A stretch of 33,052 nucleotides of DNA. Origin: Alphaproteobacteria bacterium. Lineage in GTDB: Bacteria > Pseudomonadota > Alphaproteobacteria > Sphingomonadales > Emcibacteraceae. The stretch is taken from the NCBI GenBank assembly GCA_013152755.1, contig JAADFR010000104.1, positions 7,899 to 40,950 on the forward strand, read 5' to 3'. The notes below the pieces were generated by a model. It saw only the letters and a list, made by a program, of their open reading frames with translations, made no database searches and was not told where the DNA came from. Shown here in pieces: positions 1 to 26,564 of the stretch (positions are counted from its first letter, which is position 1; every line of letters begins with the position of its first letter). Both the position numbers and the translations under genes were made by a program.

Positions 1-140
1 GAAGAATTTGTTCTTATGAAATAATATCCTGTTGAAAGTATATTTTTTAGAAGAAAATTTCTCAAACCTGTTGATTTTTCTGGCCTTGTGGGGCGAAGGG
101 TTTTATATGAAGCCCTGAGTTTAAAAGAATGGATGGACAT
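1..140. other. Upstream region of the DAHP synthase gene
   Basis: This AT-rich stretch precedes the first gene. I see no well-spaced -35/-10 pair. A weak imperfect hairpin lies at 97-116, with AGGG and TT pairing with AA and CCCT around a bulged G. There is no convincing leader peptide: the two short ATG frames, at 17 and 108, stop after two or three codons. A gene or promoter element could lie just outside the window. Confidence 0.3.
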
Positions 141-1529
141 ATGAGTAAGAACTGGACACCGGATAGTTGGCGGACAAAAGCCATACGGCAGGTTCCGACC
201 TATACCGACCCGGCAGAACTTGAAAAAGTTGAGGCAGAATTAAGTATCTGTCCGCCATTGGTTTTTGCGGGTGAAGCAAGACGCCTGACGTCGCAGCTGG
301 CAGACGTGGCCCAAGGCAAGGCTTTTTTATTGCAGGGCGGTGACTGTGCGGAGAGCTTCGATGAATTTCATGCGGATAATATTCGCGATACCTTCCGGGT
401 ATTGCTTCAGATGTCCGTGGCCATGACCTATGCGGCGGCCTGTCCGGTGGTCAAAGTAGGCCGTATGGCGGGGCAATTTGCCAAGCCGCGCAGTTCGGAT
501 TTTGAAACGGAAAATGGCGTTGAATTGCCCAGCTACCGGGGGGACATCATCAACGGGCTGGAATTTACCGCTGAATCCCGCATCCCGGACCCCAAACGCA
601 TGTTGAAGGCTTACAGTCAGTCGGCGTCCACGCTGAACCTGCTTCGCGCCTTTGCTCAGGGGGGGTATGCCAATTTGCATAAGGTTCACCAGTGGAATCT
701 GGAGTTCGTTAAAAATAACCCGGCGTCGGAACAATATAGCGATATGGCGGACCGTATTGACGAAGCTCTGCGCTTTATGCGGGCCTGCGGCGTTGATGCG
801 GATACCCGTGAATTAAGCGGTACAGATTTCTATACCTCCCACGAGGCTTTGCTGCTGTGGTATGAGGAAGCCCTGACCCGTGTGGACAGCACAACGGGCG
901 GCTGGTACGACACATCGGGCCATATGTTATGGGTGGGCGACCGGACCCGGATTCTGGATGAAGCCCATATTGAATTTCTGTCCGGCATTGGCAACCCGCT
1001 CGGGGTCAAGGTGGGGCCGACTACGGATATGGATGATTTGATTCGCATTTTGGACAAGCTCAACCCGCAAAATGAGGCCGGACGGATCACTTTAATCTGC
1101 CGTATGGGGGCCGATCTTTTGGAAGAAAAACTACCGCCTGTTATCCGCCGGATCACGGAAGAAGGCTGTCAGGTTGTCTGGTCGTCGGACCCCATGCATG
1201 GTAATACCATCAAGTCGTCTACCGGTTTTAAAACCCGTCCTTTTGAGCAGGTTTTGGCAGAAATCCGCCGCTTTTTCCGGGTGCATCGCACCATGGGCAC
1301 CTATGCGGGCGGGGTTCACTTTGAGATGACCGGACAGAATGTGACCGAATGTACGGGAGGGGCCGAGGCCATCACCGATGAGAAGTTGGCTGACCGTTAC
1401 CGCACATTCTGTGACCCACGCCTGAACGCCAGCCAGTCACTTGAGCTTGCCTTTTTGATCGCAGAAAGTCTAAAAGAAGAACGTCAGGCATTGGCATTGC
1501 AGAAACAGGGTGATACTGCGCAGGCCTGA
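141..1529 (+). CDS. aroG: Class II 3-deoxy-7-phosphoheptulonate (DAHP) synthase
   Basis: It condenses phosphoenolpyruvate with erythrose 4-phosphate, the first step of the shikimate pathway to aromatic amino acids. The family is the plant/mycobacterial class II type, not the E. coli AroG/F/H type. Counting from an ATG at 129, the expected metal ligands are Cys73 (in GGDCAES), His357 (DPMHGNT), Glu399 (HFEMTG) and Asp429 (CDPRLN). Their spacing closely matches the mycobacterial enzyme as I recall it. I chose the ATG at 141 ([10 protein letters not shown]) because the family usually starts there and a purine-rich GGATGGA precedes it; the ATG at 129 would add four residues. The protein is about 462 residues, full length for the family. 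nadE follows within about 20 bases, so the two are probably cotranscribed. Confidence 0.95.
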
Positions 1530-1540
1530 TTTGAAAGGGT

Positions 1541-3208
1541 TTGAAACAGTTGAAAATCACGCTTGCAAGTCTGAACCCCACGGTTGGGGATTTATCCGGT
1601 AATTTTGATAAAATTCTGGCCGCGCGGGAGACTGCGCGGCAGAATGATGCCGACCTTGTGGTCTATAGCGAGCTGTGCCTGATCGGCTATCCACCGGAAG
1701 ATATTGTCCTGAAAGGAGCTTTCCAGAAGGCAGCTATGGACAAGGTCACGGAACTGGCGGCTCTGTCCGCAGATGACGGACCGGCCATGCTGATTGGGAC
1801 TTGTTGGCGGGAAGGGGCACAGCTCTATAATTCCGCCATTTTACTGGATAAGGGCAAGATCGCCGCCATCCGTCACAAGGTTGATTTGCCCAATTACGGC
1901 GTATTTGACGAAAAGCGCGTATTTGCCGCCGGGCCGGACCCAAAAGCTTTGTCTTTTCGGGGGGTGAAGCTGGGCGTTATGATCTGCGAGGATATGTGGC
2001 AGCCGGAGGTATCCAATGCCCTATGCACAGACGGGGCTGAAATTCTGATTGTCCTCAATGGCTCCCCCTTTGAGCAGGGCAAGCATGAGGAACGCGAGAC
2101 ATTGGCACAGGAACGGGTTTCCGAGACATCGCGGCCTCTGATTTATGTCAATCAGGTGGGCGGGCAGGATGAACTAGCCTTTGATGGCGGTGGTTTTGTG
2201 CTAAATGGGGATGGACAGCTTGCGGTGCGCAGTGAAAGCTGGCGGGAAAATATCCATGAGACAGTCTGGCAGAATGATACAGGCGTATGGGCCTGCGTTC
2301 CCGCAGATATACATGAGGTGCCAACGGGCCATGAGGCCCTGTATCAGGCCATGATGACCGGCCTTCGGGATTATGTGCAGAAAAACCGTTTCCCCGGTGT
2401 GGTGCTGGGCATGTCCGGCGGCATTGACAGTGCCATCAGTGCGGTGGTGGCCGTGGATGCTTTGGGCGCGGACAAGGTTCATCTGGTGATGATGCCGTCA
2501 AAATATACTAGCGAGGAAAGCCTGCTGGATGCGGCCCTCTGTGCGGACTGGATCGGGGCGCGGATTGATAATATTCCCATTGAACCAGCGGTTCAGGCCT
2601 ATGATGTGATGCTGGCCGGGCAGTTTGCCGGGACGGAGGCCGACACCACTGAGGAAAATCTGCAATCGCGGATCAGGGCGGTTTTGCTCATGGCGATCAG
2701 CAATAAATTTGGCCATATGGTGCTGACCACGGGCAATAAATCGGAAATGTCCGTGGGCTATGCGACGCTGTACGGCGATATGTGCGGTGGTTATTCGGTC
2801 TTGAAAGACCTCTATAAAACGGATGTTTTTGCCCTTAGCGAATGGCGTAATAGTCACCATCCCACAGGCGGCCTTGGGCCAAAGGGACAGGTCATGCCGG
2901 AAAATATCATCACCAAGCCACCCACGGCTGAGCTGAAACCGGATCAGACGGATCAGGACAGCCTGCCGCCCTATGAAATACTGGATGATATTCTGAACTG
3001 CCTTGTGGAACAGGAAATGCCTGTGGCGGACATTGTGGCCAAAGGCCATGACAGAGAGACGGTTGCACGCATCGAGCATCTGCTGTATATCGCGGAGTAT
3101 AAAAGACGACAGGCCCCGCCCGGTGTTAAACTGACCCGGCGGAATTTTGGCCGGGATCGTCGTTATCCCATAACCAACGGTTTTCGCAATGCCAAAACCG
3201 AAGAATGA
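1541..3208 (+). CDS. nadE: Glutamine-dependent NAD+ synthetase
   Basis: It amidates nicotinic acid adenine dinucleotide to NAD+ using glutamine-derived ammonia and ATP. An N-terminal nitrilase-type glutaminase domain (about residues 1-270) carries the triad Glu44 (YSELCLIGYPPED), Lys113 (RHKVDLPN) and Cys149 (VMICEDMW). The C-terminal synthetase domain holds the ATP pyrophosphatase loop SGGIDS at residues 292-297. The frame has no ATG near its start. It opens with TTG at 1541, and a second in-frame TTG lies at 1550. The purine run GAAAGGG ending at 1539 sits too close to the first and better (10 bases) before the second, so the true start may be 1550. Full length for the two-domain form. It lies between the DAHP synthase gene and gltX, with 12 bases to gltX. 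Confidence 0.95.
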   Translation: MKQLKITLASLNPTVGDLSGNFDKILAARETARQNDADLVVYSELCLIGYPPEDIVLKGAFQKAAMDKVTELAALSADDGPAMLIGTCWREGAQLYNSAILLDKGKIAAIRHKVDLPNYGVFDEKRVFAAGPDPKALSFRGVKLGVMICEDMWQPEVSNALCTDGAEILIVLNGSPFEQGKHEERETLAQERVSETSRPLIYVNQVGGQDELAFDGGGFVLNGDGQLAVRSESWRENIHETVWQNDTGVWACVPADIHEVPTGHEALYQAMMTGLRDYVQKNRFPGVVLGMSGGIDSAISAVVAVDALGADKVHLVMMPSKYTSEESLLDAALCADWIGARIDNIPIEPAVQAYDVMLAGQFAGTEADTTEENLQSRIRAVLLMAISNKFGHMVLTTGNKSEMSVGYATLYGDMCGGYSVLKDLYKTDVFALSEWRNSHHPTGGLGPKGQVMPENIITKPPTAELKPDQTDQDSLPPYEILDDILNCLVEQEMPVADIVAKGHDRETVARIEHLLYIAEYKRRQAPPGVKLTRRNFGRDRRYPITNGFRNAKTEE

Positions 3209-3220
3209 GAAAAAATATTT

Positions 3221-4552
3221 ATGTCCGTAAAAGTTCGCTTTGCCCCAAGCCCCACCGGGCTTTTGCATGTGGGAAATATCCGTACCGCCCTAGTTAACTG
3301 GCTTTTTTGTCGCCAGCAGGGCGGAACATTCCTGTTGCGTTTTGATGATACGGATGCGGCGCGCTCGACCGAGGATTTTGCCGAGGCCATTGAACGGGAT
3401 CTCACATGGTTGGGCCTGACATGGGATGAAACTGCCCGTCAGTCGGACCGCATTGACCGTTACGCTCAGGCCGTGGAAAAACTCAAAGCAGACGGGCGTC
3501 TGTATCCCTGCTATGAAACCGGGCAGGAACTGGAGCTTAAACGCAAAGTTCAGCTGGGGCAGGGCAAGCCGCCCGTATATGACCGGGCCGGACTGTCTTT
3601 GACAGAGGGTGAAATTGCCACCTATGAAGCCGAGGGCCGTGCGCCCCACTGGCGGTTCAAGCTGAACCTGCCCGCGCGGGTGGAATGGCATGATCTGGTC
3701 AAGGGGCCCTTGAGCTTTGACCTTGAGGCCCTGAGCGATCCTATCCTGATCCGCGGGGACGGCAGCTTTCTCTATACCCTGCCATCGGTGGTCGATGATA
3801 TAGACTTTGAAATTACCCATATTATGCGCGGTGAGGACCATGCGACCAATAGCGCGGTTCAGACACAGTTGTTTGAGGCCCTAGGCGGCAGGACGCCGGC
3901 CTATGCGCATTTCTCCCTGCTCACCGGGGCAGGAGGTGAGGGGCTGTCAAAACGTCTTGGCACCGCAAGTATTCAGTCCTACCGGGATGAGGACGGTTTG
4001 GAAGCCATGAGTATCAACAGCCTTCTGGCGCGGCTTGGTTCCTCTGAGCCCATTGAACCGATGACCTCTTTGGAGCCGTTGATTGCGGGGTTTTATTTCG
4101 CCAAATACAGCCGCTCTACCGCTAAATTTGACCCCAAGGATCTTGAGGTTTTGAATGCTAAAATCCTTCATCAAACGGATTTTTCCGCTGTGGCGGATCG
4201 CCTTGACGGCGTTGATGAGGCTCTGTGGAATATATGCCGGAATAATATCAATAAACTTAATGATATTAATATGTTCCGAACTATAGTTAAAGGGCCGCTT
4301 GAACCAAAAATTGAGGATCAATCCTTTTTGGATCAGGCCTTGGGCTTGCTGCCAGCGGCCCCGTGGGATGAAACCACTTGGAAAAGCTGGACCACCGTGG
4401 TTAAGGAACAGACCGGGGCCAAGGGCCGCTCTTTGTTTATGCCCCTGCGTCAGGCGATCACGGGCATGGATCACGGGCCGGAGATGGGGGCTTTGCTGCC
4501 GCTCATTGACCCGGAAATTGTTAAGGCCCGCCTTCAGGGTAAGGTCGCATGA
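3221..4552 (+). CDS. gltX: Glutamyl-tRNA synthetase
   Basis: It charges tRNA-Glu, and possibly tRNA-Gln in bacteria that use the amidotransferase route. The class I signature [11 protein letters not shown] places the HIGH-like motif at residues 16-19 (HVGN). The KMSKS-like loop is LSKRL at 242-246. At 443 residues it is slightly short against the E. coli enzyme. The zinc-binding cysteine cluster of E. coli GluRS is not evident: around residue 100 I see PCYETGQ, with one Cys only. Many alphaproteobacteria carry two GluRS paralogues, and this could be one of such a pair; the window cannot show whether another exists. Its TGA overlaps the ATG of cysS by four bases, which suggests translational coupling. 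Confidence 0.94.
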
Positions 4553-5889
4553 AACTCAAACTTTACAACACCCTGACCAGGAAAAAAGAAGACTTTAAAC
4601 CGATCAAGCCGGATTATGTGAGCCTTTATGTTTGCGGCCCGACGGTCTATAACTATGCCCATGTGGGCAATGCGCGGCCTGTTGTGGTGTTTGACCTGTT
4701 GGTGCGGCTGTTACGCCATGACTATAAAAAAGTCACCTACGCGCGCAATATAACCGATATTGACGACAAGATTATTGAGGCCGCCCAGCAGAGCGGGATG
4801 GCAATTTCCGATATTACCGAGAAATATGCTGCGATCTATGCGGCAGATATGGCGGCGCTCAATGCGGGATCACCGGATATTACGCCAAAAGCCACCGACT
4901 ATATTGACCAGATGATTGTCATGACAGCGGACTTGATAGACAAAGGCCATGCCTACGAACAGGACGGTCATGTGCTGTTTTCCGTCCCCAGCATGGCTGA
5001 TTATGGTGAGCTGTCGGGCCGCAAGCTCAATGAAATGATCGCCGGGGCGCGGGTTGATGTGGCGTCATACAAGAAAGATGCCGCTGATTTCATTCTGTGG
5101 AAGCCCTCCACGGATGAACAGCCGGGATGGGACAGCCCGTGGGGCCGGGGCCGTCCGGGCTGGCATCTGGAATGTAGCTGCATGATTGAGGATAATTTTG
5201 GACCGACCATTGATATTCACGGCGGCGGGCTGGACCTGATCTTCCCTCACCATGAAAATGAAATCGCCCAAAGCCGCTGTGCCCATGATGGGGCGCCGTT
5301 GGCTAATTATTGGATGCATAATGGGTATCTTACGGTGGACGGCGAGAAAATGTCCAAATCCCTTGGCAATTTTGTCACGGTTCATGACTTGCTGGAAGAA
5401 TTTCCCGGCAAAGGCGAAGCCATCCGCATGTGCCTGCTCACCGCCCATTACCGCCAACCTGTAGATTTCAGCCGTGATGGTATCCGGCAAGCCCAAAAAC
5501 AACTGGACCGCTGGTATCGCCTGACCAAAGACGTTGAGACGGACGGGGTTGAGGTGCCGGAACCCATTTTGGACGCCCTGCGCGATGACCTGAACACCCC
5601 AAAAGCCATTGCCGAACTGAACAGCCTTGCCAAAAAGGCCGTGAATGATGATACGGCCAAGAAACAGCTAAAAGCCGCCGCTAATCTGTTTGGCGTTTTG
5701 GAGCAGGATGATTGGTTTGACGGGGGCAGGGATGATGAAACGGCAGCAATTGAAAAGCTGATTGTTGAACGCGCGGAAGCCAAGAAGAACAAAGACTTCA
5801 CCCGTGCCGATGAAATCCGTAATGACCTTGCTGAGCAGGGCATAGCCTTGTTGGATGGCCCAGACGGCACCACATGGGAACGAAAGTAG
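4549..5889 (+). CDS. cysS: Cysteinyl-tRNA synthetase
   Basis: It charges tRNA-Cys with cysteine. The class I HIGH motif is HVGN at residues 38-41, and KMSKS is intact at 267-271. The four zinc ligands known from E. coli CysRS are all present at matching positions: Cys29 (VCGPTVYN), Cys209 (LECSC), His234 and Glu238 (PHHENE). Length (446 residues) is standard, with the helical anticodon-binding region at the C terminus. The start overlaps the gltX stop (ATGA). It is the last gene of the plus-strand cluster and faces the minus-strand SDR gene across a repeat-filled gap of 261 bases. Confidence 0.97.
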
Positions 5890-5921
5890 TTTTTTCTCCC
5901 ATTATTTATGCTTTTTTCTCC

Positions 5922-6017
5922 CGTCATTCCTGCGTAGGCAGGAATCTAGCTAAAGAAAAATGACTTCGTAGAAGACTTGATTTGTTTCACTGGGTTCCTG
6001 CCTCCGCAGGAACGACA
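5922..6017. repeat. Paired palindromic repeat, first of two in the cysS/SDR gap
   Basis: Two 25-base arms, 5922-5946 and 5993-6017, are inverted copies of each other with about 21 of 25 positions matching. Each arm is itself an imperfect palindrome with a TTCCTGC...GCAGGAA core. The arms are separated by about 46 AT-rich bases. The consensus resembles the dispersed GTCATTCC...GGAATC palindromes of many alphaproteobacterial genomes. A transcript through either arm would fold, so it may also act as a 3' end for cysS or for the facing SDR gene. Confidence 0.8.
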
Positions 6018-6046
6018 GCTGTTTGGATATTTTGTCACCCCATTAG

Positions 6047-6126
6047 GTTATTCTGAACTTGTTTCAGAATCCACCTGTCCACCATCTAGATATTCGAAAC
6101 ATGGACCCTGAACTAAATTTAGGGTG
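6047..6126. repeat. Paired palindromic repeat, second of two in the cysS/SDR gap
   Basis: The left arm (about 6050-6073) is the palindrome TTCTGAA-CTTG-TTTCAGAA followed by TCCA. The right arm (about 6101-6126) is ACCCTGAA...TTTAGGGT preceded by TGG. The reverse complement of the right arm aligns with the left arm at about 15 of 21 positions, ending in the same TCCA. This gives the same arm-spacer-arm design as the neighbouring repeat but with a different core. It lies directly 3' of the minus-strand SDR stop codon, where it could act as a terminator. Confidence 0.65.
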
Positions 6127-6150
6127 GCACGTTTGTGTGGGGGAGGGCGT

Positions 6151-6894
6151 TTAGAGAATTTCCCCGTAAACGCCGGCCTTATAATCCCTATAGGAAATAA
6201 TCCGGCCATTTTCTTGAAATTGGGGCAGGCACATTTTTACAAACAGCGGTGCAATGTCGTCGGGGGTGTCCAGAGTGTCCGGGTCCTCTCCGGGCATGGC
6301 GGCGGAACGCATGTTGGTGCGGATGGGGCCGGGGTTGAGGATATTGGCCCGGATGCTGGTCACATTGGCCACCTCAAGGGCATAGGTCTTGACCATGCAA
6401 TTGAGCGCGGCTTTGGTGGTGGCATAACCGCCCCAATAGGCCCGGCAGTCTTCGGCTACTGTAGAGGTCACAAAAACCGCTCTTGCGGCCTCTGCGGCCT
6501 TTAGAAGCGGGTCAAAGGAGCGTAACAGACGGTAATTGGCGGTCACATTGATCGCCATCAGCTTTTCCCATTCTTTAGGTGAAATATGGCCAAGGGGGCT
6601 GATCGGGCCAAGGATGCCCGCATTACCGATCAGAATATCCAGCCGTCCCCATATTTCGGCCACATGGCCGCCGAGCCTGTCAATGGCGTCGAAATCCTGT
6701 AAATCCATGGGGACAAGGGTGGTTTCAGCCCCAAGTTCGCGTACCGCATCATCCATTTCTTCCAAGGCACCGGTGGTGCGGCCTGTCAAAATAATATGAG
6801 CACCTTCGCGGGCGAGGGCCTTTGCCACACCAGCCCCAATGCCGCGCGTCGCCCCTGTAATCAGGGCAACTTTTCCATTCAGTCGTTTTGTCAT
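6151..6894 (-). CDS. SDR-family NAD(P)-dependent oxidoreductase
   Basis: A classical short-chain dehydrogenase of 247 residues. The Rossmann glycine motif is TGATRGIG at residues 13-20, NAG occurs in the middle (GNAGILG), and the catalytic set is Ser144, Tyr157 and Lys161 (YATTK). The substrate is unknown; overall style recalls the YciK-like group often found beside purF in alphaproteobacteria. The frame is open further upstream, but those residues lie in purF. The start MTKRLNGKVALITG fits the family, and its ATG overlaps the purF TGA by four bases. It is the last gene of the minus-strand cluster, so it is probably translated from the same transcript as purF. Confidence 0.9.
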   Translation of the reverse strand: MTKRLNGKVALITGATRGIGAGVAKALAREGAHIILTGRTTGALEEMDDAVRELGAETTLVPMDLQDFDAIDRLGGHVAEIWGRLDILIGNAGILGPISPLGHISPKEWEKLMAINVTANYRLLRSFDPLLKAAEAARAVFVTSTVAEDCRAYWGGYATTKAALNCMVKTYALEVANVTSIRANILNPGPIRTNMRSAAMPGEDPDTLDTPDDIAPLFVKMCLPQFQENGRIISYRDYKAGVYGEIL

Positions 6895-16414: not shown

Positions 16415-17362
16415 ATGAGCAGTGCATTTGTTTTCCCCGGTCAGGGTAGCCAGACCGTTGGCATGGGACGGGAACTGGCAGAGAATATGCCGGTTGCCGC
16501 ACAGGTTTTTGAAGAAATAAATGATGCCTTGGGGCAAAATCTGTCAGGATTGATGTTTGACGGGCCGCAAGATGACCTGACCTTGACCCAGAATGCACAG
16601 CCTGCCCTGATGGCTGTCAGTATGGCCGTGATACGGGTGTTGGAAAAGGATTTCGATGTAAAGCTGGATCAGGTGGCCTCCTATGTGGCCGGTCATTCTC
16701 TGGGCGAATATTCGGCGCTTACGGCTTCCGGGGCCATAGGATTGGCTGATACGGCTCGGTTGCTTAAATTGCGGGGCGAGGCCATGCAACGGGCTGTTCC
16801 GGTCGGGGTGGGGGCCATGGCCGCCATACTGGGCCTGAACTTCGATGTAGCAGAAGAGGTCGCCAAGGAAGCCGCCGAGGGCGAGGTTTGCACCGCAGCC
16901 AATGACAATGCAGACGGTCAGGTGGTCATCAGCGGCCATAAGGCGGCGGTGGAACGGGCCATTGTAATTGCCAAAGAAAAAGGGGCCAGGCGGGGCATTC
17001 TGTTACCGGTCAGTGCGCCTTTTCATTGTTCCCTGATGCAGCCAGCCGCCGATGAAATGGCGGATGCTCTGGCGGAAACCGTAATTTCTGCGCCCTGCGT
17101 ACCTGTGATTGCCAATGTGACAGCGGCCCCGGAGAGTGACCCGGAAAATATCCGGAAATATCTGGTGGAACAGGTTACGGGCCGGGTGCGTTGGCGGGAA
17201 TCGATCCTTAAAATGAATGAACTTGGTGTAGGCAAGGTGGTTGAGGCCGGAGCGGGCAAAGTCCTGACCGGTATGGTGCGGCGTATTTGCCGGGATATGA
17301 CAGGTCTTTCCCTGCAAAGCCCTGCTGATATTGAAGCCTTTGTAAAAGCAGGAGATGAATGA
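16415..17362 (+). CDS. fabD: Malonyl-CoA:ACP transacylase
   Basis: It transfers malonyl from CoA to acyl carrier protein for fatty acid synthesis. The oxyanion-loop motif FPGQGSQ lies at residues 7-13, the active serine is Ser95 in GHSLGE, and the catalytic histidine is His204 in APFHCSLM. At 315 residues it is full length. It overlaps or abuts fabG (TGATG) and starts the fabD-fabG-acpP-fabF cluster. Confidence 0.97.
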   Translation: MSSAFVFPGQGSQTVGMGRELAENMPVAAQVFEEINDALGQNLSGLMFDGPQDDLTLTQNAQPALMAVSMAVIRVLEKDFDVKLDQVASYVAGHSLGEYSALTASGAIGLADTARLLKLRGEAMQRAVPVGVGAMAAILGLNFDVAEEVAKEAAEGEVCTAANDNADGQVVISGHKAAVERAIVIAKEKGARRGILLPVSAPFHCSLMQPAADEMADALAETVISAPCVPVIANVTAAPESDPENIRKYLVEQVTGRVRWRESILKMNELGVGKVVEAGAGKVLTGMVRRICRDMTGLSLQSPADIEAFVKAGDE

Positions 17363-19970: not shown

Positions 19971-20951
19971 ATGACCGGGATACGCAAATATATCATCCTG
20001 TTGATTTTAGGCAGCGTCGCATTTGCGGCGCTGTTTTTCTATCTGGGCTATAAAAAATTCCATGAAAAAGGCCCCGCGACACAGGACGTAATATATTTCC
20101 TGCCAAAGGGGCAGGGGGTTATCCGTACCGCATGGGAACTTGAACAGAAGGGCTATATTACTGATCAGAATATTTTTAAGCTGGGCGTAAAATTATCCGG
20201 TTTTGAGCGAAATTTGCGTGCCGGGGAGTTTGCCATCCCCGCCTATTCGAGCATGTTCGACATTATGATGATATTGTCCAGCGGCAAGGTGATTCAACAT
20301 CGCCTGACCATTGTTGAGGGCTGGACAAGCTGGCAAATTGTCAATTACCTGAACAGCCTTGAAAATTTGACCGGCCAGATTCTTGACCTTCCCCGGGAAG
20401 GCTCAATCCTGCCGGAAACCTATCATTACACCCGGAATACAGACCGCCATGAGATCATCCGGCGCATGCAGGTGCGTCAGCTCGACCTGATGGATGAAAT
20501 ATGGGATCAGCGGGCCGCCGACCTGCCTTTTGTTTCCGTGGAGGATGCGCTTATTCTGGCTTCAATCGTCGAGAAAGAAACCGCCGTTGACCATGAGCGC
20601 GCCCATATCGCCGGGGTGTTTGTCAATCGCCTGCGCAAGAATATGCGCCTGCAAACGGACCCGACAGTGATTTACGGCATTGACCGCCGGGGCTTTTTGG
20701 ACCGGCCAATCCGGAAATCTGATCTGAAATCTGACAATCCCTATAATACCTATCGTTTCAAAGGCTTGCCGCCTACTCCAATTGCCCATCCGGGCCGCGC
20801 GTCCATAGAGGCGGTGTTGCACCCGTTGGAGACAGATGATCTCTATTTCGTCGCTGACGGCACAGGCGGCCATGCCTTTGCCAGCCGACTGCGTGACCAC
20901 CTGAAAAACGTCAAAAAATGGCGCAGGTTGGAGAAAGAGCGTAAAAACTAA
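19971..20951 (+). CDS. mltG: Endolytic peptidoglycan transglycosylase MltG
   Basis: It cleaves nascent glycan strands in the periplasm and is thought to set strand length. It is a type II membrane protein with one N-terminal segment (about residues 6-25), then a LysM-like region and the YceG domain. The conserved LASIVEKET motif places the catalytic glutamate at about Glu201, with TDPTVIYG and NPYNTYRFKGLPPTPI further on. Length is 326 residues. It probably shares a transcript with fabF. Its stop codon abuts the restored 3' end of the convergent SDR gene. Confidence 0.95.
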   Translation: MTGIRKYIILLILGSVAFAALFFYLGYKKFHEKGPATQDVIYFLPKGQGVIRTAWELEQKGYITDQNIFKLGVKLSGFERNLRAGEFAIPAYSSMFDIMMILSSGKVIQHRLTIVEGWTSWQIVNYLNSLENLTGQILDLPREGSILPETYHYTRNTDRHEIIRRMQVRQLDLMDEIWDQRAADLPFVSVEDALILASIVEKETAVDHERAHIAGVFVNRLRKNMRLQTDPTVIYGIDRRGFLDRPIRKSDLKSDNPYNTYRFKGLPPTPIAHPGRASIEAVLHPLETDDLYFVADGTGGHAFASRLRDHLKNVKKWRRLEKERKN

Positions 20952-21716
20952 CTCTTCTTCGGCATCACCCGGAAAATCCGGTCAAACAGCCATTCCGGCA
21001 GGCATCTAACCATGAAACCGAATATAAGGCTCAGTTGCCTGCCACGGGAAGGTGATCCGGGCCTGATTCTTTTCCAGACCCCGGCGCAGGGCCTTGATGG
21101 CTTTATTCGTTTCCATCAGGAAAGGCATGGGGAATTTATTGCTGGCGGTCATGCGGCTTTTGACAAAGCCGGGGCAGACCACATTGATTTCAATGCCGTC
21201 ACTGGCATAAAGGCCGCGCAGGGCCTCACCATAGGCCTTCACACAGACCTTGCTGGTTGAATAGGCCGGGGCCGTGGGCAGGCCGTGATAGCCGGCCAGT
21301 GAGGATATGATGGCGATCTGTCCTTTTCCCCGGGGCTGCATCAGGCGAATGGCCGGATGAACCGTGTTAAAGACCCCGTTCACATTGACCTCAAAAATCT
21401 GTTTGGTGTGGTGGCCTAAATCCATATCCTTTGTATAGCCAAGCCCAATTCCCGCATTGGCGATAATCAGGTCCAGAGATGCTATTTTATCACAAGCTAT
21501 AATCCAGTCTGACATGGCGGTTTCATCCGCTGTATCAACGATGGCAATATGTACCTCTGCGCCCAGAGCGTGACATTGCGCCTGAACCGCATTCAGCCGG
21601 TCTTCATTGCGCCCGGATAAAAACAGGGTTACACCTTCCGTGGCATAGTCTTTGGCCATGGCCTCGCCCAGCCCGCTGCTGCCGCCGGTGATAAGAATGG
21701 ATTTTGGATTTTTCAT
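20948..21716 (-). pseudogene. SDR-family oxidoreductase with apparent 3' frameshift
   Basis: The intact frame (21006-21716, 236 residues) is a classical short-chain dehydrogenase: TGGSSGLG near residue 10, IANAGIG, and catalytic Ser139, Tyr152 and Lys156 (YSTSK). The frame stops at 21006. Removing one base from the T run on the coding strand (AAA at 21015-21017 on the plus strand) changes the ending RFHG-stop into RFMVRC, then LPEWLFDRIFRVMPKKS and a stop at 20948. That gives 255 residues, with a basic amphipathic tail like those I recall for related SDRs. The core is complete, so the short form may still work; it may instead be a sequencing error. AGGA lies about 11 bases before the ATG. Substrate unknown. 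It is transcribed away from yicC. Confidence 0.75.
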
Positions 21717-21772: not shown

Positions 21773-22660
21773 ATGACATTATCGAGTATGACAGGATTCG
21801 CCCGCACCGCCGGGAGCTGGGAAAATTATCACTGGACGTGGGAAATTAAGAGCGTTAATGGCCGGGCCCTTGATGTGCGGTGCCGGGTGCCATCAGGCTA
21901 TGACGGGGTGGAACAGATGGCCCGTAAAACCATGAAAGCGGCTATTGCGCGCGGTTCGGTGAATATCAACCTGCAACTGAACCGGGATACGGAGGGGGTG
22001 AATTTCAAGGTCAATCAGAAAATGCTGGATGCCTTGGTTGAGGTCGCGACCCAAACCGCCATGGAAAATCATTTGCCCCAACCCGGCCTTGATGCGTTGA
22101 TGACCGTGCGGGATGTTATCCAATATGTGGAACCGGAAGAGGATGACGCCACCATAAAGGCGCGTGATGCGGCTCTCTCTGCGTCCTTTGAAGAAACGTT
22201 GATTGCCTTTAAGGCGGCCCGTGATGTGGAGGGTGCGGCGTTGCAAACAGTATTGGCTGAGCTGCTGGATGAGATTGAACGTCTGGTCAAACAGGCGGAC
22301 AGTCTGGCAACAGAAATGCCAGAACTGATCAGGCAACGTTATACGGACAAGGTTAATGCCCTGTTGGGTGACAGCAATGCCATTGATCCGGAACGTATCG
22401 CTCAGGAGGTGGTTTTGCTGGCTACCAAGGCGGACATCAAAGAAGAAATTGACCGGTTATATGCCCATATAGAGGCTGGGCGCACTCATATGAAGGCGGA
22501 CGGTCAGATTGGCCGGAAGCTGGATTTCCTGACTCAGGAATTTAACCGGGAGGCCAATACATTATGCAGCAAAGCCTCGGATATTCGCCTGACCGATGTG
22601 GGGTTGTCCTTAAAAACCGCCATTGATCAATTCCGCGAGCAGGTACAGAATATTGAGTGA
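21773..22660 (+). CDS. yicC: YicC-family protein (probable endoribonuclease)
   Basis: A YicC/YloC family protein of about 295 residues; members have been described as endoribonucleases acting in RNA turnover. The N-terminal signature SMTGFAR and the C-terminal block KLDFLTQEFNREANTLCSKASD are both present. The frame is open upstream to 21704, but MTLSSMTGFAR at 21773 fits the family; an ATG at 21788 (MTGFAR) is also possible. No convincing ribosome-binding site precedes either. gmk follows after 4 bases, and this pairing is conserved in many bacteria. Confidence 0.93.
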   Translation: MTLSSMTGFARTAGSWENYHWTWEIKSVNGRALDVRCRVPSGYDGVEQMARKTMKAAIARGSVNINLQLNRDTEGVNFKVNQKMLDALVEVATQTAMENHLPQPGLDALMTVRDVIQYVEPEEDDATIKARDAALSASFEETLIAFKAARDVEGAALQTVLAELLDEIERLVKQADSLATEMPELIRQRYTDKVNALLGDSNAIDPERIAQEVVLLATKADIKEEIDRLYAHIEAGRTHMKADGQIGRKLDFLTQEFNREANTLCSKASDIRLTDVGLSLKTAIDQFREQVQNIE

Positions 22661-24255: not shown

Positions 24256-25276
24256 GAGATTTCATCCGGTTCAGATGTATTTTTTCCGCCTGTTTCAGGG
24301 CATTGATCATGCTGTTGGGGCTGGCCATATTCTTCCCGGCAATATCCAAGGCTGTCCCATGGTCGGGTGAGGTACGCACGATGGGCAGGCCAAGGGTCAC
24401 ATTAACACCGCCGTCAAAATCAAGGGTCTTGAGCGGCAGTAGCGCCTGATCATGATACATGCAAAGCGCGGCATCATAGGTGGCGCGGGCGGCGGCATGG
24501 AACATAGTGTCAGCGGGCATGGGGCCACGAATATCCATGCCCTGATTTCGTAGGCGTTCAAGGGCAGGGGCGATGACTAGCTGTTCTTCCTGCCCCATGC
24601 TGCCGTCTTCGCCCGCATGGGGGTTAAGGCCAGCCACCGCAATGCGGGGGGTTTCAATTCCAAAGTCCTGCTTTAGGGCGGCATGGAGCGTATGGCATGT
24701 CTGTTCGATAAGGTCCGCTGTGATGGCACCGGGAACCTCCGAAATAGCCCTGTGAATGGTTAGGGGAACTACGCGCAGTTCAGCGGACAGGAGCATCATA
24801 ACCGGCGGGGTGTTTGAGCTGCAAAGCTCCGCCAGATACTCCGTATGACCGGGACAAGTAAAGCCAGCTTCATATAATACGGATTTTTGAATGGGGGCGG
24901 TGACCAACCCGGCGGCTTGGCCCTCTAAAATAAGCTGAACAGCCGTTTCTATAGATTTAAGGACTAAGGGCGCGGTTTGGGGTGATGCTTTGCCGAAATT
25001 AAAATCCGCCTTATGGTCAAGCAGTAAAATTGGCAAAGATTTTTGAAAAATATCACCTGATTCAGTCGCTTTGGAGATAGGCTGGAACGGGACATCCAGC
25101 CCCAGTTCCCGCGCCGTTTTGGTGAGGATTTCCAAGCTGCCAATAACGAAAAAGGGCGGCAGATCATGACGTGACCTTTCCGCCCATGTTTTCAGAATTA
25201 TTTCAGGACCAATGCCCGCAGGTTCCCCAAGGGACAGGGCGAAAGGCAGAGACTTATTTATAGTCGATGATGGCAT
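24248..25276 (-). CDS. pdxA: 4-hydroxythreonine-4-phosphate dehydrogenase
   Basis: It oxidises 4-phosphohydroxy-L-threonine in the DXP-dependent route to pyridoxal phosphate. The three metal histidines of the family are seen in LTIHRAI, GLNPHAGEDG and MYHDQALLPLK. The substrate region CPGHTEYLAEL and the ending GTALDIAGKN are also typical. At 342 residues it is full length. The ATG at 25276 places its start 23 bases inside the end of surA; I see no better start further on, since GEPAGIGPE must be included. Confidence 0.96.
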   Translation of the reverse strand: MPSSTINKSLPFALSLGEPAGIGPEIILKTWAERSRHDLPPFFVIGSLEILTKTARELGLDVPFQPISKATESGDIFQKSLPILLLDHKADFNFGKASPQTAPLVLKSIETAVQLILEGQAAGLVTAPIQKSVLYEAGFTCPGHTEYLAELCSSNTPPVMMLLSAELRVVPLTIHRAISEVPGAITADLIEQTCHTLHAALKQDFGIETPRIAVAGLNPHAGEDGSMGQEEQLVIAPALERLRNQGMDIRGPMPADTMFHAAARATYDAALCMYHDQALLPLKTLDFDGGVNVTLGLPIVRTSPDHGTALDIAGKNMASPNSMINALKQAEKIHLNRMKSHV

Positions 25277-26564
25277 CGCGCCTAAGATCCCTGAGGTGAC
25301 GGCGGGCGATCAGGCCAACCCGCTGCTGTGACAGGCTGCCTTCCACACTGTCATAGTCCGGCATGCGGATTTCAGGCTCTTTGCGGTCGCAAACGACAAA
25401 TACACGGTAACCATTGGGTTCCTTAACCGGCGCGCTGGCATGGCCAACTTCAAGGTCCAAAATGGTTTTATGCAGGTTTCTGGGCAGGTCTGAGATAGCC
25501 AGATTGCCAAGACTTCCTGTTTCCTTGGCGCCAAGTTCCTTGCCCTGTTCTTTAAGGTTATCGCAATTTTCAATTTTTGCGGCGGCGGCGGCAACAGTTT
25601 TTTCCAAGGCAGCCAGTTCCTCGTCCTTGGCCTTGTCGGAAACTTCGAAGAACAGATGTTGCAGGTCCACACGGGTGTCAGTTTCCGAAGCCGTTAAAAT
25701 TTGCCTTTTGCCGGCAAGTTGAAGAATATAAAAACCGTCTTCGGTTTCAACGGGGTCTGAAATGTCCCCTGTTTCCATCTTTTCAAGGGTCGCGGCGATT
25801 TCCGGGTTTATCTGTGATTTCATAAGCCAGCCAAGGTCACCGCCAACGGCTGAGGTGGTTGACTGTGAGAATTGACGGGCCATGACCTGAAAGGATGCTT
25901 TTTTTCTGAGCTGTTCAACAATCCTGTTGGCGGCAACTCTGGTTTCATCCCTCTTTTCATTGTCAGACACCAAAAGGAAAATTTCCAGCGGGTGAAATTC
26001 TTCCTGCCCCTTGTTATGATTCATACGGTCAAGAATACTATAGATTTCCTCATCACTGATACTTACCTGAGGCATAAGGAGGCCGCCAACTACCTGTTCC
26101 CAAGCCAGAGAAGCTTCTACCTGAAGCAGCATGGATTCTTTGCGGATACCGGCCTTGTTCAGCTGTTCTTCAAGCTGTTTGGGCGTAAGCCTCATTTGCT
26201 GGGCATAAGAAGCGAAGGATTGTTCCAGCTCTTGCTTGCTGATGACGGTTTTATATTTTTCCGCTTCCTGAGTTTTGAGCTTGTCATCTACAAGGCTTTG
26301 TAAGGCTTGTTGGTTTAAATATTGCTGTTCCTGTTGGGAACGTTGCCTGTTGCCGGAGGAAATGATGAACAACAACACCCGCTGTTTCAGGTCATAAAGC
26401 GAAATGGGGCTGTCGTTTACTACGGCAACAATCTGTTGTACATCGCGTAATTCCTGTGTGTCAGCGGCTTGTTGTGCCTGACCTATTTGGGGCAATAACA
26501 GGAAACTTGCGATGGCTGCCATTGCGCCTGACTTGAATTTTGTAACAACAAATTTAATATTCAT
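25254..26564 (-). CDS. surA: Periplasmic chaperone/peptidyl-prolyl isomerase SurA
   Basis: It escorts outer-membrane proteins, including LptD, through the periplasm. A signal peptide is visible (basic start, hydrophobic segment AAIASFLLLP, cleavage likely after QAQ or GQA). A SurA N-domain from about residue 40 follows (IVAVVNDSPISLYDLKQRV). The first parvulin domain (about 185-290) is well preserved, with GGDLGWL and DGFYILQL. A second, more divergent parvulin-like region (about 300-410) carries two cysteines (ENCDNL, VFVVCDRK) that could form a disulfide. Length is 436 residues. It lies downstream of lptD, a conserved pairing. Confidence 0.92.
   Translation of the reverse strand: MNIKFVVTKFKSGAMAAIASFLLLPQIGQAQQAADTQELRDVQQIVAVVNDSPISLYDLKQRVLLFIISSGNRQRSQQEQQYLNQQALQSLVDDKLKTQEAEKYKTVISKQELEQSFASYAQQMRLTPKQLEEQLNKAGIRKESMLLQVEASLAWEQVVGGLLMPQVSISDEEIYSILDRMNHNKGQEEFHPLEIFLLVSDNEKRDETRVAANRIVEQLRKKASFQVMARQFSQSTTSAVGGDLGWLMKSQINPEIAATLEKMETGDISDPVETEDGFYILQLAGKRQILTASETDTRVDLQHLFFEVSDKAKDEELAALEKTVAAAAAKIENCDNLKEQGKELGAKETGSLGNLAISDLPRNLHKTILDLEVGHASAPVKEPNGYRVFVVCDRKEPEIRMPDYDSVEGSLSQQRVGLIARRHLRDLRRDAIIDYK

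Follow-up and report, generated by a model that had tools for sequence, protein, structure and literature searches.

A four-base tandem duplication shifts the frame of a conserved short-chain dehydrogenase/reductase gene and hides its C-terminal tail in the assembly of an Emcibacter-like alphaproteobacterium

We found that a conserved short-chain dehydrogenase/reductase (SDR) gene of an Emcibacter-like alphaproteobacterium carries a 4-bp tandem duplication that puts the family's 28 C-terminal residues out of frame. The gene lies in a stretch of 33,052 nucleotides, which we call the window. The reading we favour, with a probability of about 0.6, is that the duplication is a recent and real mutation by which the tail was lost and the core left untouched, the product being probably destabilised or mislocalised. 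As it reads now, the SDR open reading frame runs on the minus strand from 21716 to 21006 and encodes 236 aa ending in YIRFHG; an initial annotation of the window had likewise given the stop at 21006 and the ending RFHG. Residues 1-226 form an intact Rossmann/catalytic core, and the last ten residues (ATEPYIRFHG, 227-236) are out of frame.

The core of the protein has the properties of its family. Its match to Pfam PF00106 (adh_short) reached 151.9 bits (2e-44) and passed the gathering cut-off of 26.6. In an alignment of 33 sequences that includes the window protein, the cofactor motifs TGxxxGxG (T10, G11, G15 and G17) and NAG (N87, A88 and G89) were invariant, as were the catalytic positions N111, S139 and Y152; K156 was conserved in at least 90% of the sequences and is a lysine in the window protein. 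We take the two motifs, and the Asn-Ser-Tyr-Lys positions as catalytic residues, to have here the meaning that they have in other SDRs. Judged by its motifs, catalytic residues and Pfam match, the gene product is a classical SDR. The best family model was NCBIfam NF005437 (PRK07024, SDR family oxidoreductase), which matched the intact relative L003 through its tail (residues 3-253) and the window protein only to residue 227; however, both scores (209.9 and 182, respectively) fell under the curated cut-off of 266, and neither protein can be assigned to this equivalog.

The position of the lesion was given by the nearest sister, genome G011 (contig C55), whose SDR protein is the same as that of NVVY01000013.1 from the MAG NORP51 and to which the window is 93% identical over 17,137 columns. 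The sole indel between the two in the SDR gene consists of 4 bp that are extra in the window and were placed by the alignment at 21036. Two adjacent copies of TGCC (GGCA on the minus, coding strand) stand there, at 21036-21039 and 21040-21043, where the relatives have a single one, and the coding strand around the break reads TTCCCGTGGCAGGCAACTGAGCC in the window and TTCCCGTGGCAACTGAGCC in the sister. The frame is broken after Q226. From 21034 an open frame runs to the stop codon at 20948; it translates to LSLIFGFMVRCLPEWLFDRIFRVMPKKS, so that the conserved tail, 28 residues and a stop, occupies positions 20948-21034 of the minus strand. The initial annotation had rightly suspected that a frameshift hides a conserved tail but had located it in the T run (21015-21017), as a slip of one base, from which it derived a tail of 21 residues and a restored protein of 255 aa. 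We ruled out this site, as the comparison with relatives shows that the frame is wrong already from residue 227, upstream of the T run; the lesion precedes the run by 19-28 bases on the coding strand, and the run itself sits within the part already shifted. A one-base change in the T run would chance on the right frame, which explains why the end of the true tail had been seen, and joining the frames there would keep the wrong stretch ATEPYIR in the restored protein, which in the sisters is mostly of 254 aa.

The relatives were drawn from 60 related genomes, from GTDB genome contigs and from 296 genomes of the order, and the best 30, 10 and 30 loci, respectively, were fetched; orthologues weaker than the best 30 loci in the related-genome and order searches contributed open-frame lengths only. 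Locus L024, whose contig breaks off within the SDR gene, was excluded and identical proteins were collapsed, which left 34 distinct proteins including that of the window, that is, 33 complete relatives; the locus of the nearest sister (L010) was kept out of the protein alignments on account of its undetermined residues. Among these best loci the tail was in frame, in a single uninterrupted frame, in all 33 distinct complete relatives (for L052 as read from the protein alignment), with a total length of 245-259 aa, and the 4-bp duplication was absent from every one of them. None of the 33 ended at or near RFHG, an ending that would have spoken against the hidden tail of the initial annotation, and this ruled out a naturally shorter end of the family. 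The 14 distinct relatives of the same genus encode 254 aa in 13 cases and 259 aa in one; a further genus member, G014 (67% complete, one of 15), gave no SDR match at E ≤ 1e-50. Across the order, 51 of the 296 genomes, the window's own (G000) included, had a match at this threshold, and the shortest of the 51 was the open frame of the window (238 aa), followed by one of 239 aa that is cut by a contig end. With a private indel in a frame that is conserved among its relatives, the present gene can be classed, on sequence grounds, as a frameshift allele or young pseudogene.

The same comparison bears on two mechanisms that would make use of both frames. Programmed ribosomal frameshifting, which had been offered in the initial annotation as programmed slippage, would produce two isoforms, with and without the tail, and would agree with the intact state of the hidden tail and with the purifying selection that acted on it until recent times. 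Against it, in the 33 relatives the tail continues the frame of the core without a break, so that a two-frame organisation is not conserved, and the shift is due to a duplication found in this genome only. A slippery heptamer was not seen by eye in the sequence (TTT only). We discarded this mechanism on the single frame of the relatives and rank it as the least probable of all the explanations considered. The second is a reversible contingency (phase-variable) site, at which gain or loss of one TGCC unit by slippage would switch the tail between present and absent within the population; the lesion is indeed a tandem unit, and the relatives with one unit are in frame. Phase-variable tracts, however, have many repeat units and only two are found here, a 4-mer pair like TGCC TGCC starts at 104 positions of the window, and the single-unit state is seen in 33 of the 33 relatives at the best loci fetched. 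We regard such a site as very improbable.

Among the neighbours, mltG (endolytic transglycosylase of the YceG family; 19971-20951, plus strand) is convergent to the SDR gene, and its stop codon overlaps that of the restored tail by 4 nt (20948-20951), in agreement with the initial annotation. The same tail-to-tail overlap was found in seven of the 14 distinct genus-level relatives, including the nearest, and mltG is convergent to the SDR gene in the fetched locus of 22 of the 33 relatives. Some of the SDR-mltG distances were large and negative (e.g., in L005, L012 and L018), probably as a result of partial mltG matches. Upstream of the SDR gene lies a divergent yicC-like gene (21773-22660, plus strand), with its start as in the sister; its longest frame in the window starts at 21704. 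At the far end of the window, positions 1-6166 encode a class II DAHP synthase, an NAD synthetase and class I tRNA synthetases of the Glu/Gln and Cys kinds, and no collinear match to them was present in the fetched stretches of G011 contig C55, whose match starts at 6167. This start may mark a synteny break, a rearrangement or simply the end of the fetched stretch.

The codon differences between the window and G011 give an estimate of the age of the lesion. In the tail, all 28 residues are identical, while nine codons differ, nine of them synonymously and none non-synonymously; in the core, 191 codons were compared (34 were skipped for N), with 15 synonymous and five non-synonymous differences. 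No sign of long decay was seen in the differences of either part. A purely synonymous divergence indicates that selection on the protein kept acting on the tail through almost the whole period after the two lineages separated; the duplication is therefore either recent or absent from the organism altogether. The first alternative supports the recent mutation that the initial annotation had listed among its explanations. The second amounts to an assembly or consensus artefact, in which the gene is intact in the cells and the four extra bases stem from metagenome assembly or strain merging; that relaxed selection has left no trace in core or tail is what such an artefact would predict.

The source genome is one consensus assembly in 191 contigs, a degree of fragmentation that favours an artefact. 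On the other hand, within the approximately 27 kb of the window that could be aligned with G011, in two pieces, no gene other than the SDR has an N-free, uncompensated frame-breaking indel in its interior. The remaining indels are intergenic, at the first bases of a gene, beside Ns of the sister, or belong to a single +1/-1 pair 7 bases apart at 25767-25774, inside gene 25254-26564. Two of the 27 sister ORFs examined in this part were not covered in one frame, namely the SDR gene and an ORF antisense to gene 16415-17362 that coincides with many undetermined bases of the sister. Gene 16415-17362, whose position suggests fabD, is open in the window (315 aa) and is read in three frames in the sister assembly, with Ns at two indels; since G011 is N-rich at this gene, its calls there are not to be read as mutations.

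Outside the window, six of 57 sister ORFs examined in other stretches were not covered in one frame: four contain 16-26 undetermined sister residues, one is a DJ-1/PfpI-family gene and one is an ORF of 100 aa that may be spurious. In the reverse direction, the sister lacked a single frame covering 12 of 85 ORFs of the window's genome, taken from partly overlapping stretches; several of the 12 lie at sister Ns or at the ends of stretches. A wider census, of 155,233 aligned sister bases (664,716 fetched), counted 28 isolated indels that break the frame and are free of N, in coding and non-coding sequence together. Among the census breaks in frames of at least 140 aa, relatives were checked for the SDR and the DJ-1/PfpI gene; most of the other entries lie near frame starts, and L163:15565, L077:1478 and L077:2712 are also listed. 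Frame breaks are uncommon in the sequence compared, and many frame errors were not seen in the window or in the other stretches compared with G011.

In the DJ-1/PfpI-family gene (L077:2189 on G000:C164; relative at L065:4449-5126), a 5-bp tandem duplication (TCCGG) breaks the frame near codon 25. The window's genome aligned to the query from residue 24, and all eight other genus genomes with a match among the 16 searched, one of them being G011 as the query's own genome, aligned from residue 1. Several of these matches, including that of the window's genome, count a stop within the matched range, which is probably the natural end near residue 196-200. A paralogue neighbouring this gene (G000:C164:1082-1570, L077:1478) has an open frame of only 179 aa. 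Of four relatives, three have 323-335 aa, and that of G006, which lies near a contig start, has 214 aa. The paralogue also differs from the sister by one base in a G run.

Both of the breaks that were checked against relatives are thus short tandem duplications, which fits slipped-strand mutation but could also be a habit of the assembly, and a second conserved gene broken in this way adds to the case for an artefact. The SDR lesion, in turn, being a 4-bp duplication and lying outside any homopolymer, does not resemble a typical short-read error. Taken together, an artefact appears possible, though at well below even odds, and we favour a real mutation over it by roughly 2 to 1, a ratio that is our judgement and not a computed value. 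The sequencing error suggested by the initial annotation survives only in this broader form, and not as a one-base error in the T run. Target-site duplications are commonly 4 bp and 5 bp long, and the two duplications could accordingly be read as footprints of a departed insertion element that left them behind after excision. This seems highly unlikely, because the flanks are gapless against the sister apart from the duplicated bases and slippage is the simpler account of both duplications. A more speculative proposal, to which we give hardly any weight, is that the lineage is prone to 4-5 bp tandem duplications that silence or trim conserved genes, and that trimming of the membrane-touching SDR tail, by which a membrane-bound enzyme would become soluble, is a selected and perhaps reversible switch. 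The loss of the tail is probably due to an ordinary recent mutation, or possibly to an assembly error, with no special mechanism behind it.

To describe the missing element we used AlphaFold2 models. The model of the intact relative L003, built on a 33-row alignment, had a mean pLDDT of 88.8 and comprised the SDR core followed by two helices (225-237 and 240-248), the confidence in the tail being moderate (block means of 79, 69, 71 and 57). In the model of the window protein the core was kept (mean 90.6) and the chain ended in a poorly supported short helix. A C-terminal helix-turn-helix between conserved prolines, seen in the intact relatives from the L003 model and the alignment, is lost from the window protein. 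The best PDB matches of Foldseek were chains of HSD17B13, with 11-beta-HSD1 also listed. VIA-align gave 8g9v_E (HSD17B13) a Z of 29.6 and an rmsd of 2.7 over 253 aligned residues, and the HSD17B13 chains at the top were tied with several other SDRs (3tjr_A and 7djs_D at equal Z). A profile search ranked HSD17B13 first, aligned through residue 246, and paired P224 and P239 with two HSD17B13 prolines at chain positions 261 and 275 by our own count, which would be P260 and P274 of the published numbering (PMC10449848) with an offset of one. The best 11-residue hydrophobic moment of the tail was 0.87, a value reached by 103 of 5000 shuffles, and is only suggestive of amphipathicity. The tail is predicted from these models to be a proline-bounded helix-turn-helix similar to the membrane-associating element of HSD17B13.

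If the duplication is a real mutation, as we favour, it would have been gained recently after codon 226, probably through ordinary slipped-strand replication. Translation would shift frame at the duplication, add ten foreign residues and stop, and the family's last 28 residues would be lost with the catalytic core untouched. The lost tail would be an amphipathic, proline-bounded helix-turn-helix whose counterpart in solved enzymes of close structure, those of the 17-beta-HSD13 and 11-beta-HSD1 type, contacts the membrane and has a stabilising effect on the protein. By analogy with these enzymes, the product is likely to be destabilised, or detached from the membrane and mislocalised, and we infer that the function of this SDR is likely lost or weakened. 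An annotation of the gene should record a frameshift caused at 21036-21043 rather than in the T run, and should not treat the present RFHG ending as the natural end of the protein.

Finally, we compared the window allele with known systems. Its orthologues in the genus and order (G011/NORP51, G006 and the Emcibacter sp. MAGs) have the same core, and the nearest sister has the same 28-residue tail, but those of the genus differ from it in their single frame, their length and the lack of the 4-bp duplication. Ordinary frameshift alleles and young pseudogenes of bacteria have a small indel in a conserved and otherwise intact gene, and so does the window allele, whose only distinction lies in the kind of indel, a 4-bp tandem duplication. 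11-beta-HSD1 is a membrane-associated SDR with the same fold as the window family; HSD17B13 shares the fold and has a C-terminal proline-bounded helix-turn-helix at the same place of the alignment. Both enzymes differ from the bacterial family in that the identity is about 20-27% and the bacterial model has no N-terminal anchor helix, starting instead at the cofactor strand. In PMC10449848, residues P260-N286 of HSD17B13 are described as a helix-turn-helix that forms an amphipathic patch of the membrane-anchoring domain, and the isoD (P274del) variant, without the C-terminal peptide, as unstable, with an incompletely formed membrane-interacting helix. The isoD truncation lies in the matching element and is a natural loss-of-function parallel. 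The window allele may be a small counterpart in nature of this human variant, a related enzyme that becomes unstable once the corresponding part of its C-terminus is damaged.
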